Shown piece after piece: positions 7,153 to 45,759 of a stretch of DNA of 64,000 nt. The DNA lies in assembly GCF_007751035.1 (NCBI RefSeq), contig NZ_CP036433.1, positions 8,165,001 to 8,229,000 of the forward strand, read 5' to 3'. Under the pieces are notes generated by a model. That model saw nothing but the letters and a program-made list of their open reading frames with translations, searched no databases and was not told where the DNA came from. This DNA comes from Lignipirellula cremea. GTDB lineage: Bacteria; Planctomycetota; Planctomycetia; Pirellulales; Pirellulaceae. The position numbers were made by a program, and so were the translations under genes. Positions within the stretch are counted from its first letter, which is position 1, and the number at the start of each line of letters is the position of its first letter.

Positions 7153-7468
7153 AATCGACCGAATTTACGGGTCGGGACGACGGCTGCCCGCGCTGGCGAG
7201 TGCGCAGGATCCAGCGCCCTTGCTAGTGTAACTCACCCACAGGGGCCGTTCGTCGCGGGAGAGCCCGTTTTGTGCGGTTTCTCGCCGCCTGCCGTATTCC
7301 CTTGACGCACCACTTGTACAGGGAGAATGACGTCGCTCTTCCTGCCGCCATGCCAACAGAAACCGCGTTTGAATTCCGTGCCTGTTCCTTGCTCCGGCCC
7401 TGCGTTCCGGTTAGCGTGACAGGTTAGCATCCGCCACCTGCCGGGAGACGTTTCTCGTCGCACTTAAT
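7153..7468. other. Divergent intergenic region with a possible MITE relic
   Basis: This 316-nt gap lies between the starts of the minus-strand UbiB-like gene and the plus-strand WD40/cytochrome gene, so it must contain promoters for both. It carries TTGACGCACCACTTG (7302-7316), nearly the terminus of the two elements at 43.1-43.4 kb, and a weak opposing CTAGTG at 7223. The pair could mark a degraded ~94-bp element. No coding frame here is credible. Confidence 0.4.
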
Positions 7469-41292: not shown

Positions 41293-42324
41293 ATGTTTCT
41301 GGGCATCGAGATCGGCGGCACCAAGTTACAACTCGGCGTGGGGCAGGGCGATGGCTCGCCCCCGCAGGCGGTTATCCGCCGCCAGGTCGGCCCTCAGTTT
41401 GGCGCCGCTGGCATTCTTCACCAGATCGATTCGGCCGCTGCCGAACTGCTGGCCCAGCACCCTTGCCAGGCCATCGGCATTGGCTTTGGCGGGCCCGTCG
41501 ATCGCCCCCAGGGCCGCGTCTTCAAAAGCCATCAAATCGCCGGCTGGGACCAGTTCGAACTGGCCGCCTGGGGTCGCCAGGTATTCCAGCTGCCGACCGT
41601 CATCGCCAACGATTGCGACGCGGCCGCCCTCGCAGAAGCCCGTTTTGGGGCCGGTCGCTCCCACCGGTCCGTGTTCTACGTAACCGTGGGGACGGGCGTC
41701 GGCGGCGGGTTTGTCGTCGATGGGCAACTCTTTGGGCAGGATCGTCCCGCCATCGCCGAGATCGGCCATCTTCGTCCGGGACTGCAGGCGGATCGCACCG
41801 ATCAAACGGTCGAATCCATCGCCAGCGGCTGGGGGATCGTGGCCGAAACGCACGCCCGCCTGGCCGGCGAGGTTTCGCCCGCCTTTGAGATGCTGCACCG
41901 CACTTCCGGGCCCGACGATCCCACTGCCCTGCGGCGCCGGTTTGCCGAAGCGATCGATGCCAACCAGGAATACACCGACGACCTGCTGCTGCGGTGCCAG
42001 AACGACCCGGAGAAGTTGACCGCCAAGACGATCGCGGCCGCAGCCGCTGACGGCAATGAGATTGCCCGGGAAGTGATCGACCATGCCTGCCGGGCGCTGG
42101 GCTGGGGCATCGCCCAAGTGACGACCCTGCTGTCGCCAGATATGGTGGTGATTGGCGGCGGCGTTTCGCTGATCGGGGAAACGCTGTTCTTCTCAACCGT
42201 CCGCCACTATGCCCAGCTGTACGGTTTTCCGCCCCTGGCCGGCACGTGTGCGATTGAACCGGCATCGCTGGGCGAGCTGACCGTGGTGCATGGCGCCCTC
42301 GCCCTGGCGGCGGAATCCGTATAA
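41293..42324 (+). CDS. ROK family sugar kinase-like protein lacking the zinc motif
   Basis: ROK proteins are glucose/fructose/N-acetylmannosamine kinases or sugar-responsive repressors. ATG 41293 (MFLGIEIGGTKLQLGV) has AGGAAA about 6 nt upstream and gives 343 aa. Visible are the phosphate-1 loop (EIGGTK), the catalytic-base region IANDCDAAALAEA, the phosphate-2 loop VTVGTGVGGGFVVDG and the adenosine loop MVVIGGGVSLIG. Where ROK kinases carry the zinc signature CxCGxxGCxE, this protein reads EIGHLRPGLQADRTDQTVESIASGWG without cysteines, though the family His (EIGH) is kept. There is no N-terminal DNA-binding domain, so a kinase role is likelier than a repressor. The substrate is unknown. Confidence 0.85.
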   Translation: MFLGIEIGGTKLQLGVGQGDGSPPQAVIRRQVGPQFGAAGILHQIDSAAAELLAQHPCQAIGIGFGGPVDRPQGRVFKSHQIAGWDQFELAAWGRQVFQLPTVIANDCDAAALAEARFGAGRSHRSVFYVTVGTGVGGGFVVDGQLFGQDRPAIAEIGHLRPGLQADRTDQTVESIASGWGIVAETHARLAGEVSPAFEMLHRTSGPDDPTALRRRFAEAIDANQEYTDDLLLRCQNDPEKLTAKTIAAAAADGNEIAREVIDHACRALGWGIAQVTTLLSPDMVVIGGGVSLIGETLFFSTVRHYAQLYGFPPLAGTCAIEPASLGELTVVHGALALAAESV

Positions 42325-42339
42325 CGGTTTCTTCGCCGC

Positions 42340-42390
42340 GTTAGGGGTCGCCAACGGTTAGGGGTTGGCAACGGCTAGGGGTCGATAACG
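42340..42390 (+). repeat. Three tandem 17-bp units
   Basis: Three adjacent units, GTTAGGGGTCGCCAACG, GTTAGGGGTTGGCAACG and GCTAGGGGTCGATAACG, fill most of the gap between the convergent ROK and small exported-protein genes. The constant part is G(T/C)TAGGGGT and AACG. Confidence 0.8.
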
Positions 42391-42417
42391 TTCGCTGATT
42401 GCCTGGAGCCAGAGCGA

Positions 42418-42981
42418 TTACTCGATCGCGACGCTGCGGCCTTTGAACTGTCCCAGCAGATTAAATCCGCCCTGCTGGGCCTGCCCGACCGCGGCCGCCT
42501 GGTTATTCCAGTTGAAGGTGTAGGCCGCGATATGGCCTGAATTTGCTTCGGCCACATAGATGACGCAGTTGGCGGGACGAACGCCGCCTCCGCCGCGGTT
42601 GAACTGGGCTCCGCCGGTCACCATTACAAATCGCGGCTCCTTGGCGACGCCGGCGCCCAGGCCAAGATCGTTAAGTACATTGTGTTTGAAATGTCCGCCC
42701 GGCAGACCCGTGCGCGCGTAAAAGACAATCCCGTTCAGTTCGCCAGTTAGACCATCGAGCGTGAACAGCCCTTCAATGTCCCCGTCAACCGGGCCGGTAG
42801 CGATGCAAAACTGAGTCTGGGCCGCCGCGCCCGAGGCCCGCAGGATCTGTTCCGGAATCACAAAACCTTGCGGCTGCTCCACGTTGCTGGCCAGCCAGCG
42901 ACTTCCTCCCAGGGTCGCCACCGCTCCCAGTAAAACGCCGCAACACGCCATGATCCAGGGGTTTTTCATTTGAAGCTTCAT
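42418..42981 (-). CDS. Small exported or membrane-anchored protein of unknown function
   Basis: The 187-aa protein has one N-terminal hydrophobic helix (WIMACCGVLLGAVATLGG), probably an anchor or uncleaved signal. It is followed by a compact domain containing FTLDGLTGELNGIVFYAR, RFVMVTGGAQF, CVIYVAEANSGHIAAYTFNWN and a glycine/glutamine-rich C-terminus ending RSVAIE. This pattern resembles short hypothetical proteins of planctomycetes; no function is known to me. The mature part would lie outside the cytoplasm. Its promoter should lie in 42982-43104, before the first MITE-like element. Confidence 0.7.
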   Translation of the reverse strand: MKLQMKNPWIMACCGVLLGAVATLGGSRWLASNVEQPQGFVIPEQILRASGAAAQTQFCIATGPVDGDIEGLFTLDGLTGELNGIVFYARTGLPGGHFKHNVLNDLGLGAGVAKEPRFVMVTGGAQFNRGGGGVRPANCVIYVAEANSGHIAAYTFNWNNQAAAVGQAQQGGFNLLGQFKGRSVAIE

Positions 42982-43104
42982 TACACCGCGTCCGGAAAGA
43001 AAGGCTGATAAGAGATGTCGCCGGACGCACCCACGCCCGTGCCCAACCCACTTATTGTAAATCGGACGTCATTTTCCGGCAAGCGCGACACCAGCGGCTC
43101 TCCC

Positions 43105-43233
43105 AAGTGCTGCGTCAATCTTCAATCTTCGAGTGAGCGATTTGGGCCGTGCTGCTGTGCTGCCAAGAAAACCGTGGGCTAGCGCCCGGCGGCTGATTGA
43201 GAGAAACCTGATTTTAGGGTTTGACGCACCACC
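43105..43233. mobile_element. MITE-like element A (129 bp)
   Basis: The left end AAGTGCTGCGTCAA (43105-43118) and the reversed right end TTGACGCACCACC (43221-43233) are inverted copies of one terminus with a C/G difference. The interior contains the palindromic segment CCGTGGGCTAGCGCCCGG (around 43173-43190). Element B, 56 bp away, aligns with it along its length after reversal (termini and the CAAT(C/T)AGCCG ... CCACGGTT core). It has no coding capacity, so any transposition would need a transposase from elsewhere. Confidence 0.6.
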
Positions 43234-43289
43234 AGGCCCCGCAGGCAGCGATGATTTCTTCGGTTGGTCCGCTCCGCTGGCCGGGTATA

Positions 43290-43422
43290 CTAGTGGTGCG
43301 TCAAGTTTCAATTTTAGGTTTGGCCATTTTCGCGCGAGCCGCTGTTCCTTTTAGTTAACCGTGGCTATCGCCAAAACGGCTAATTGGAAGAACCCGAACT
43401 CTTTGCCTTGACGCAGCACTAG
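43290..43422. mobile_element. MITE-like element B (133 bp)
   Basis: The ends are CTAGTGGTGCGTCAA (43290-43304) and the reversed TTGACGCAGCACTAG (43408-43422), a 15-bp terminal inverted repeat with one mismatch. CTAG at both outer edges may be part of the terminus or a target duplication. It ends 66 bp before the NPCBM gene start, so it could affect that gene's expression. Confidence 0.65.
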
Positions 43423-43488
43423 AGCAGACACCATTCCCTGTCTTTCCTGCCATCTGCCGCAGGCGGCCGCCGAAGGGGGCGCCCCTTG

Positions 43489-45759
43489 ATGATCATGCGA
43501 ACACACCTGTGCAGCCTGCTTCTGCTTCTGACTGCTTTCGCCCCCGCCTGGACTGCAGAACCAGCAGCGAGCTGGCAGCCGGTCCTGATTGAACTGCGCG
43601 ACGGCGCGCAACAGCGCGGCAGCCAGTTGAAAGGTCTCTTCGACGGCGCCCTTGCGCCCCAGTTCGACGGCCAGCCGCTGGATCGAACGACCCTGCGCCG
43701 GATGCGGAATCTGTCCGCTTCCATGCGGCCCAGCGGCCCGGCGATTGAACTGGCCAATGGCGACTTTCTGCCTTGCGAAGTGCTGCAGTACCTTGCGGCC
43801 GACGATCAGCCGGCCGCGCTGCGGGTGCTGCCAACATTCAGCCAGGGCCTGACCGATTCAGTGCTGCTGGTGCGGCTGGACTGGATCCGTCGCATTGTCG
43901 ACCAGCCCCGACCGCCCAGCGAAGGGTCTTCCCACCTGCTGCTCAAAGACGGCCGCAAGCTGGCGTATCGCTCCTTCCACTGGATGGCGACCGGCGTCCG
44001 CGTGCTGACCGAAGGCGCCGGCGGCGAGGTGATCGAAGTTCCCTTTTCGCAAATCGCCGAACTGGAACTGGGCGACCTGCGCATCGAAACAGTCCTGCAC
44101 GACAGTCGCCGCGCCCTGGCCGTCGGCGATCCGGCCGTCGCCCGCCTGACCACCACCGACGGCGCCCGGCTGACGTTCCCTTCGCAGCAGATGGAAAGAG
44201 TGGCGATCGAGCCGCCGGGACGCCGGGTGGAGATCTACTTCCGCTCCGCGATCCAGCCCTCCTGGTCGCTGAATCCTTTGTACCTGGATCCCGAGGTCGT
44301 GGCGGCCTGTTCGTTCCATGCCCCCACGGAGATCCCCCTGTCGGTCCTGCCCGCCAGCGATGTGCGGCAACGCCTGGGTCTGCGGGCCTGGGACTGGCAG
44401 CGTGATCGGAATGTGACAGGCGGCCTGCTGGCCAGCGGTCGGGCCTCAAGCGAACTGGGCCTGGGAATGCACTCGCATACCGAGGTCGATTTTCTCTTGC
44501 CGCCTGGCGCCCGCTCGCTGCAGTGCCGCGTCGGCATTGACCGCATCGCCGAGGCCGCCGGCTGCGCCGAGTGCGAAGTGCTCAGCGGCAGCGAACCGCG
44601 ATCCTTGTGGAAAAGCGGCTTTCTCCAGGGCGGTCAACAACCCGCCGAGACCGGTCCGCTGCCGGTCGAAGGGGAAACGCTCGTCACGCTGCGCACCGGT
44701 TTTGGCCACGACAATCGTCCCGAAGGCGCCGCTCCGCTGGATCTGGGCGATCACGTCGACTGGATCGATCCGATCGTCGTCGTGCAGCTGGAAATGACGC
44801 CTGCCGAACGACTGGCTCTGGCGGCGCCCGAACTGGCCGGCTGGTTACTGGCGCCCGAGGACGCGGACCGAGTGCAGGCCCGGCAGACCTGGGACGCCAA
44901 ATCCGAACGCTGGCTGACCAGGCTGCAGATCGATCATGGCGACGATTCCCTGCCGGTGCGTTTCACCCGTCGCCTGCAGGTCGGGCTGGCGAACGCGTTC
45001 TTCCGCGTGCAGGCCAGGCGACTGGATTCCCCCAACTGGCACATGATCCGTCTGGACGTCGACGGGCAGAGGCAAACCACGACGATGAACGGCGATCTGG
45101 AAACCGACGCCGTGGCGATGGTGCATCGAAAAATGACGGCCGTGATGGATGAACGCGTCTGGCTGTTAAGCGAATACGCCGGCAAGGAGGTCGAAGCGAC
45201 GCTGATCTTTGAGCCGAAGAAGCCCGGCCCGGCGACCGTGATCATCGCCGAGGCCGCGTTCGTGCCGCTGGTCGCCCACCTGCCGCCCAGCGAAAAACCG
45301 ATCACCCCGGACGTCCCTCTGACTTCGCTCAAACCGCAAGCGATGAAGATTAGCGAGGATCTGCCGCGCCACTTCCTGCATTACCTGGGGCTGGATCGGC
45401 CCATCGCTCTCAAAGCGGGCCAGATGACTGACGGCTCGCCTTTGAAGATTCGTGGCTTCGCGTTCGACACGGGCATCGGCCTGCCGAACGGACTTGAGCT
45501 AACGTACGAGTTGGACCCGAAGTGGCGTCGCTTTGTGGCGATCGGCGGCCTGGCTTATGGCTGGAACGAGATCGGCTATGAGATCCTGCTCGACGGAGAA
45601 CCGCACTGGCGGAGCACCGACCCGACGCATTTCGGCCGGAACACCCCCTGCACCCAGCTGATCGCTCCGATTCCGCCGGGACATAAGACGATGACCGTCC
45701 GCCTGTACGGCGGCAAAAGCAGCGGCGGCCTGGCCCACGCCGGTTTCATGCGGGAGTAA
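43489..45759 (+). CDS. Secreted protein with two NPCBM-like carbohydrate-binding domains
   Basis: The start at ATG 43489 has AGGGGG about 9 nt upstream and is followed by a signal peptide (LCSLLLLLTAFAPAWTA). Length is 756 aa. After a beta-rich N-terminal region (IELRDGAQQRGSQLKGLFDG) comes a first NPCBM-like domain (~280-400) with GLLASGRASSELGLGMHSHTEV and RVGIDRIA. A second NPCBM-type domain (~620-756) has LHYLGLDRPIA, FDTGIGLPNGLELTYELD, FVAIGGLAYG and MTVRLYGGKSSGGLAHAGF. NPCBM domains bind galactose-type glycans in exported glycosidases, but no catalytic domain is recognised here. It probably acts in the periplasm or outside the cell on polysaccharide. Confidence 0.82.
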   Translation: MIMRTHLCSLLLLLTAFAPAWTAEPAASWQPVLIELRDGAQQRGSQLKGLFDGALAPQFDGQPLDRTTLRRMRNLSASMRPSGPAIELANGDFLPCEVLQYLAADDQPAALRVLPTFSQGLTDSVLLVRLDWIRRIVDQPRPPSEGSSHLLLKDGRKLAYRSFHWMATGVRVLTEGAGGEVIEVPFSQIAELELGDLRIETVLHDSRRALAVGDPAVARLTTTDGARLTFPSQQMERVAIEPPGRRVEIYFRSAIQPSWSLNPLYLDPEVVAACSFHAPTEIPLSVLPASDVRQRLGLRAWDWQRDRNVTGGLLASGRASSELGLGMHSHTEVDFLLPPGARSLQCRVGIDRIAEAAGCAECEVLSGSEPRSLWKSGFLQGGQQPAETGPLPVEGETLVTLRTGFGHDNRPEGAAPLDLGDHVDWIDPIVVVQLEMTPAERLALAAPELAGWLLAPEDADRVQARQTWDAKSERWLTRLQIDHGDDSLPVRFTRRLQVGLANAFFRVQARRLDSPNWHMIRLDVDGQRQTTTMNGDLETDAVAMVHRKMTAVMDERVWLLSEYAGKEVEATLIFEPKKPGPATVIIAEAAFVPLVAHLPPSEKPITPDVPLTSLKPQAMKISEDLPRHFLHYLGLDRPIALKAGQMTDGSPLKIRGFAFDTGIGLPNGLELTYELDPKWRRFVAIGGLAYGWNEIGYEILLDGEPHWRSTDPTHFGRNTPCTQLIAPIPPGHKTMTVRLYGGKSSGGLAHAGFMRE

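Follow-up and report, generated by a model that had tools for sequence, protein, structure and literature searches.

Elements A and B, which lie side by side in the analysed DNA of Lignipirellula cremea, very probably represent two related families of non-autonomous transposons that owed their movement to an IS630-family (Tc1/mariner-type DDE) transposase acting in trans, judging from their ends and flanks. Family A is also interrupted by a separate IS4-family transposon, which by its position uses the palindrome of A as a landing site. The window, that is, the whole stretch of 64,000 nucleotides that was analysed, spans positions 8,165,001–8,229,000 of a genome consisting of one contig of 9,565,229 bp.

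Two MITE families in the window and the genome

The features of the window that concern the two elements are as follows.

43104–43107, no strand: flanking 4-mer CAAG, left of A, probably a decayed CTAG target copy
43108–43231, + strand: MITE A, 124 bp, TGCTGCGTCAA...TTGACGCACCA, of a family with 82 confirmed motif places in the genome
43178–43185, no strand: GCTAGCGC in the palindrome of A (A positions 71–78), the IS4-family insertion point at 14 other A sites
43232–43235, no strand: flanking 4-mer CCAG, right of A and followed by G, which fits a CTAGG to CCAGG conversion
43290–43293, no strand: CTAG target of B, left copy
43294–43418, + strand: MITE B, 125 bp, TGGTGCGTCAA...TTGACGCAGCA, of a family with 56 motif places in the genome; DNA fold z −2.9
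43419–43422, no strand: CTAG target of B, right copy

The window pair consists of two insertions with 62 bp between them, and the genes on either side are read divergently. The pair lies between a minus-strand ORF (187 aa, start 42981, without a Pfam match) and an NPCBM gene (start 43486; PF08305, 2.7e-19). As the earlier note had described, the pair occupies the gap before the NPCBM gene, the GCTGCGTCAA/GGTGCGTCAA ends are present in A and B, CTAG stands at both edges of B, and neither element encodes a protein, no ORF of at least 60 aa lying wholly inside A or wholly inside B. The GCTAGCGC site of the window A copy is empty, with no IS4-family element there. The proposal that A and B share internal sequence in opposite orientation did not hold: alignment in the same orientation scored 86 and the reverse complement 46. 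For the interiors alone, the same-orientation score (54) was higher than those of all 1000 shuffles, whereas the reverse-complement score (24) was reached by 55 of 1000; only the G/C base marking each end is swapped between A and B. A match at 7302, previously taken for a relic of the same kind, was rejected, since the best score of the surrounding 180 bp against A or B was 28 compared with shuffle maxima of 34–40, and 0.4 10-mers of this kind are expected by chance in the window.

Genome-wide searches confirmed that the two elements are homologous and MITE-like and that their terminus is no single-copy accident. The end GTGSTGCGTCAA occurred 219 times in the genome, compared with 9 occurrences of the reversed control pattern. 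Family-specific internal motifs were found at 86 places for A (at most 3 mismatches) and 56 for B, with none for the reversed controls; alignment upheld 82 of the 86 A places (80/81 at up to 2 mismatches and 2/5 at 3) and all 56 B places, although motif places do not quite equal elements, one rearranged site having two A motifs and another none. In 108 fetched regions, 129 full-length elements with inverted ends were delimited (75 A and 54 B), and 13 of the A elements contained an inserted IS, intact in 12 and truncated in one. Twenty partial matches were left out of the 129, including two A halves around a tandem IS pair and six fragments of a scrambled B locus. Mean pairwise identity was 94.3% for family A (48 copies of equal length) and 97.0% for family B (52 copies). 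The elements have TG...CA ends and are mostly flanked by CTAG; with lengths of 124 and 125 bp, inverted ends, many copies and no coding capacity, they have the properties of MITEs. One B locus (L263, genome positions 9414536–9414849) carries 30-bp B fragments repeated at a spacing of about 38 bp and appears to be a scrambled or slipped copy.

In 59 relatives, all from outside the genus, matches to the exact end were at chance level (15, compared with 14 for the reversed control), and none of 11 other genomes, TBK1r included, yielded a MITE whose intact ends were exactly of this type. Among the papers listed by literature searches on planctomycete MITEs and on MITEs with IS630 or CTAG, none described these elements.

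Relative to genes, 77 of 100 A/B sites lay outside compared with about 22% of random positions, and 23 of 100 inside gene calls compared with 78% of random positions, as scored by a rough home-made gene caller that places even the window site "inside" a gene. By neighbouring genes, the outside sites comprised 22 convergent, 47 tandem, and 8 divergent positions. This placement, with the excess of convergent over divergent sites, is what would be seen if the elements were kept for a service to the host, such as transcription termination or RNA stabilisation between genes, and B folds beyond its shuffles (z −2.9 as DNA; −3.0 and −2.6 as RNA). Selection against gene disruption, however, gives the same placement, the fold of A is not clearly beyond shuffles (z −1.3 as DNA; −1.0 and −1.7 as RNA), no Rfam family matched window positions 42000–44500 at E 0.1, and the chance-level occurrence of the end in relatives also counts against a host role. 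We saw no evidence deciding for host function and regard this explanation as improbable.

IS630-type ends and probable target-site duplications

Two of the first 100 of the 219 ends were orphans, at 1610929 and 372338. The orphan at 1610929 belongs to neither A nor B and adjoins what is left of an IS630-family transposase gene, its 3' part. This relic is truncated to 206 aa (DDE_3, 1.8e-15; IS630 model, 3.5e-23, with 82.5 bits against a cut-off of 100), has the end CTAGTGGTGCGTCAA, and is the sole match in the genome at E 1e-5. An intact IS630 transposase with these ends was not found in the L. cremea genome. A scan of named genomes with the IS630 transposase, from which the best 80 of 211 relatives were taken, revealed that the closest were eight TBK1r loci, 82% identical. 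All eight TBK1r loci among these 80 are copies about 1230 bp long, and they share the CTAGTGGTGCGTCA ends (CTAGTGGTGCGTCAG and CTAGTGGTGCGTCAA); in the one copy read, two overlapping ORFs (155 and 231 aa) fill the element. A transposase gene with the same termini, for which the earlier note had proposed to search, exists in an autonomous IS630 element in TBK1r, and a truncated relic with the same end is present in L. cremea.

Among the same best 80 of 211 relatives, CTAG flanked both sides of all 25 IS630 copies examined in four hosts (8 loci in TBK1r, 9 in Pan216, 6 in Leptolyngbya PCC 7375, and 2 in Phaeodactylibacter). In 12 comparisons beyond the shared end, the left end of A resembled IRR (a score reached by 0 of 2000 shuffles) and the right end of B resembled IRL (p 0.0005), while the right end of A and the left end of B gave no clear IS630 match (best p 0.023 and 0.0215).

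The flanks of the elements also bear on the mode of insertion. The 129 elements comprised 79 single elements and 50 in 25 pairs. CTAG was present on both sides of 36 of the 79 singles, and a further seven had identical non-CTAG 4-mers on both sides (CTAC in four, GTAG in two, and TTAG in one), compared with a permutation mean of 0.63; none of 5000 permutations reached seven. Insertion at TA/CTAG is as expected for MITEs of an IS630-family element. Because the two sides are directly identical, the 4-mers suggest target copies and not element tails, and they behave as 4-bp duplications, a reading that rests on a minority of the singles since 29 of the 79 had CTAG at one side only with a different other edge and six had neither CTAG nor identical edges. 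The remaining single showed an inverted 4-mer match.

Many of the one-sided changes gave CTGG or CCAG, at edges where the adjacent base completes CCWGG. A total of 208 outer flanks were counted, of which 42 with other 4-mers were left out of the conversion test. In a CCWGG context, 22 flanks were converted (CTGG/CCAG) and 14 unconverted, compared with 2 converted and 128 unconverted outside this context (Fisher p 6e-16). Vsr-type very-short-patch repair turns CTAGG into CCAGG, and since two Vsr-family members were matched in the genome, this repair is the likely cause of the CTAGG to CCAGG edge conversions. The right edge of A in the window (43232–43236), CCAG followed by G, fits such a conversion; its left edge, CAAG, probably derives from CTAG.

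In each of the 25 pairs, exactly 4 bp separate the two elements. The right end of A is joined to the right end of B in 15 of them, three of which are accounted for by a tandem array of 357-bp units, and the junction reads CGAG (from A to B) in 14 of these 15 compared with 1 of the 10 in other arrangements. The pair at 4771922 has an identical non-CTAG 4-mer on both sides (CTAA, read from A to B). The shared junction and these identical outer 4-mers fit a single original fusion, with the joined elements moving together from then on, and we infer that some A-B pairs probably did so. The tandem array (L065/L224, genome positions 5247482–5248677) contains three 357-bp units, in each of which an A-B pair is accompanied by 104 bp, and a further A.

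An alternative explanation is that the two elements are doublets of the REPIN kind that owe their spread to a RAYT (Y1) transposase and not to a DDE enzyme. Both elements contain a GNNA-tipped hairpin, B can be read by eye as an inverted pair, the genome encodes four Y1_Tnp domains, and similar cores are present in repeats of two other genomes (G102 and G129). However, none of the four Y1_Tnp loci (3.2–3.3 kb each) contained the A/B end, so these genes lack flanking repeats of this type; the identical 4-mers are direct in seven cases and inverted in one; and the ends match IS630. A RAYT origin is accordingly very unlikely.

Under the IS630 reading, we infer both the identity of the enzyme and the chemistry of transposition: an IS630-family transposase would act by binding the TGSTGCGTCAA ends, excising the element, and integrating it at CTAG, which would leave CTAG at both edges. 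The parent IS630 transposon is probably now nearly lost from this genome, and since no intact gene for the enzyme was found here, A and B are probably now immobile.

An IS4-family passenger in A

Ends of the A type about 1671 bp apart enclose a 479-aa IS4-family transposase present in 14 intact copies in the genome. The protein matched DDE_Tnp_1 (2.8e-13) and NF033592 (155.6 bits, cut-off 115), and the YREK motif of the IS4 family was read by eye as YSQRWRVETDLSQIK. What seems at first an IS with the same ends, and the obvious first answer to the origin of A, proved to be A interrupted at one place by an unrelated IS4-family element, 1531 bp long, whose ends are its own, CCAATGGCACT...AGTGCCATTGG. 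An IS701 origin, considered in view of the 4-bp duplication, was rejected, as the IS701 scores of the passenger fell far under the cut-offs (20.4 against 170 and 19.1 against 250).

All 14 intact passenger copies and one truncated copy adjoin A halves at the same base, in the palindrome. Twelve intact copies stood alone, one of these (L223) between two inverted A right halves; two more followed each other in tandem within a single A, and the truncated copy lay between two left A halves. None of the 15 copies was outside A, and none adjoined B better than A. Of the 14 intact copies, 13 were flanked by a duplication of the 8-bp GCTAGCGC, and the L223 copy (L106) showed 6 bp. The 8-bp length lies within the direct-repeat range of about 7–13 bp given for YREK-bearing IS4 groups in Table 1 of PMC2266710. 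At the tandem site (L202, genome positions 3870950–3874151), a single GCGCTAGC stands between the two IS4-family copies. The exact 12-bp passenger target was absent outside the elements from 628 kb of fetched sequence, chosen for holding A or B, in which 895 GGCN4GCC sites were counted.

The enclosed transposase and its 14 intact copies would also suit the view that A is a deletion derivative of a 1.67-kb element with the same ends, whose IS4-family transposase moves A and B, but this is refuted by the passenger's own duplication lying inside A, the transposon proper is the 1531-bp element, and relatives of the transposase found in other genomes lie in unrelated repeats and have similar ends, which leaves this view hardly credible. 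A and B are best read as IS630-derived, with the IS4-family element as a passenger.

No match was confirmed when named genomes were first scanned with the IS4-family transposase; passenger relatives were found in 12 other genomes (12 of 148). Seven of these 12 were used, with returned loci only; G121 and G150, which gave partial matches, were left out, and no clean duplication was seen around the relatives in G079, G099, and G118. In the seven genomes, the relatives were 39–46% identical, and insertions were resolved at 20 of 21 loci, L138 of G027 alone showing no duplication. The duplications were 8–12 bp, in part since the letters of the target run on into the IS ends. By eye, most had at their centre a GC-rich palindrome with GNNA in its middle, with L152 and L145 of G006 as exceptions. 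All four centre-adjacent pairs matched in 20 of the 25 distinct contexts listed, compared with 0.5% of random positions, and in 13 of 18 when the seven L. cremea variants of one target were removed, contexts within one genome not being independent. At L133 of G006, a passenger relative lies within an array of repeats whose period is close to 319 bp.

The relative in G102 sits in a CTAG-flanked element of 174–175 bp with TG...CA ends, the same nesting in a second genus. Four copies of this element were seen (L139 and L149), two of them empty and two carrying the relative at the same hairpin, and CTAG-flanked MITEs hold the IS4-family lineage in two genera. As differing palindromes hold this lineage in eight genomes, its transposase may recognise shape rather than one sequence. 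A three-layered arrangement is possible, although we consider it doubtful: a MITE spread by IS630, a mostly gene-safe palindrome pad provided by it, and a specialised IS4 lineage that may recognise an extruded GNNA-tipped hairpin by its shape. The passenger, with 15 copies at 14 sites, offers a natural set for asking how an IS4-family transposase picks its target. It also carries a warning for annotation, in that a transposase gene between MITE ends need not be the parent of the MITE.

Comparison with known systems

The passenger resembles ISRm22 of Sinorhizobium meliloti, an IS4-family element found in REP palindromes (10/10 in the table and nine copies in the text of PMC1525189), in being found only in a palindromic repeat, and differs from it as there described in that the palindrome here lies inside a MITE. 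As for A and B, MITEPsy1 of Pseudomonas syringae is likewise a short MITE (100 bp) and duplicates 4 bp, CTAG or YTAA; according to the entry in PMC3189936, it is linked to ISPsy2, marked "IS5?", and its ends differ from those of A and B. ISY100, a Tc1/mariner-type IS630 element, also inserts at TA but, as portrayed in the sections of PMC2170065 drawn on here, duplicates TA (2 bp), whereas the A/B flanks fit 4 bp, and A and B are without a transposase gene. The same contrast holds for published IS630 members in general, which duplicate 2 bp (TA), while the A/B flanks behave as 4 bp. A paper in the reference list of the ISY100 study reportedly describes preferential transposition to TA in CTAG.

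The closest known kind is RUP of Streptococcus pneumoniae, a 107-bp element with 108 intergenic copies and a TA-containing target, linked to IS630-Spn1 (PMC2229807). A and B resemble RUP, within what that source sets out, in size, intergenic copies, IS630-family-like ends, a TA-containing target, and presumed movement in trans. They add a well-delimited RUP-like IS630 MITE system, which, compared with the same account of RUP, is set apart by several features: there are two diverged families, some of whose members probably moved together in pairs; the parent is known in this genome only from a relic; the flanking 4-mers behave like 4-bp duplications; and family A is the target of another IS.
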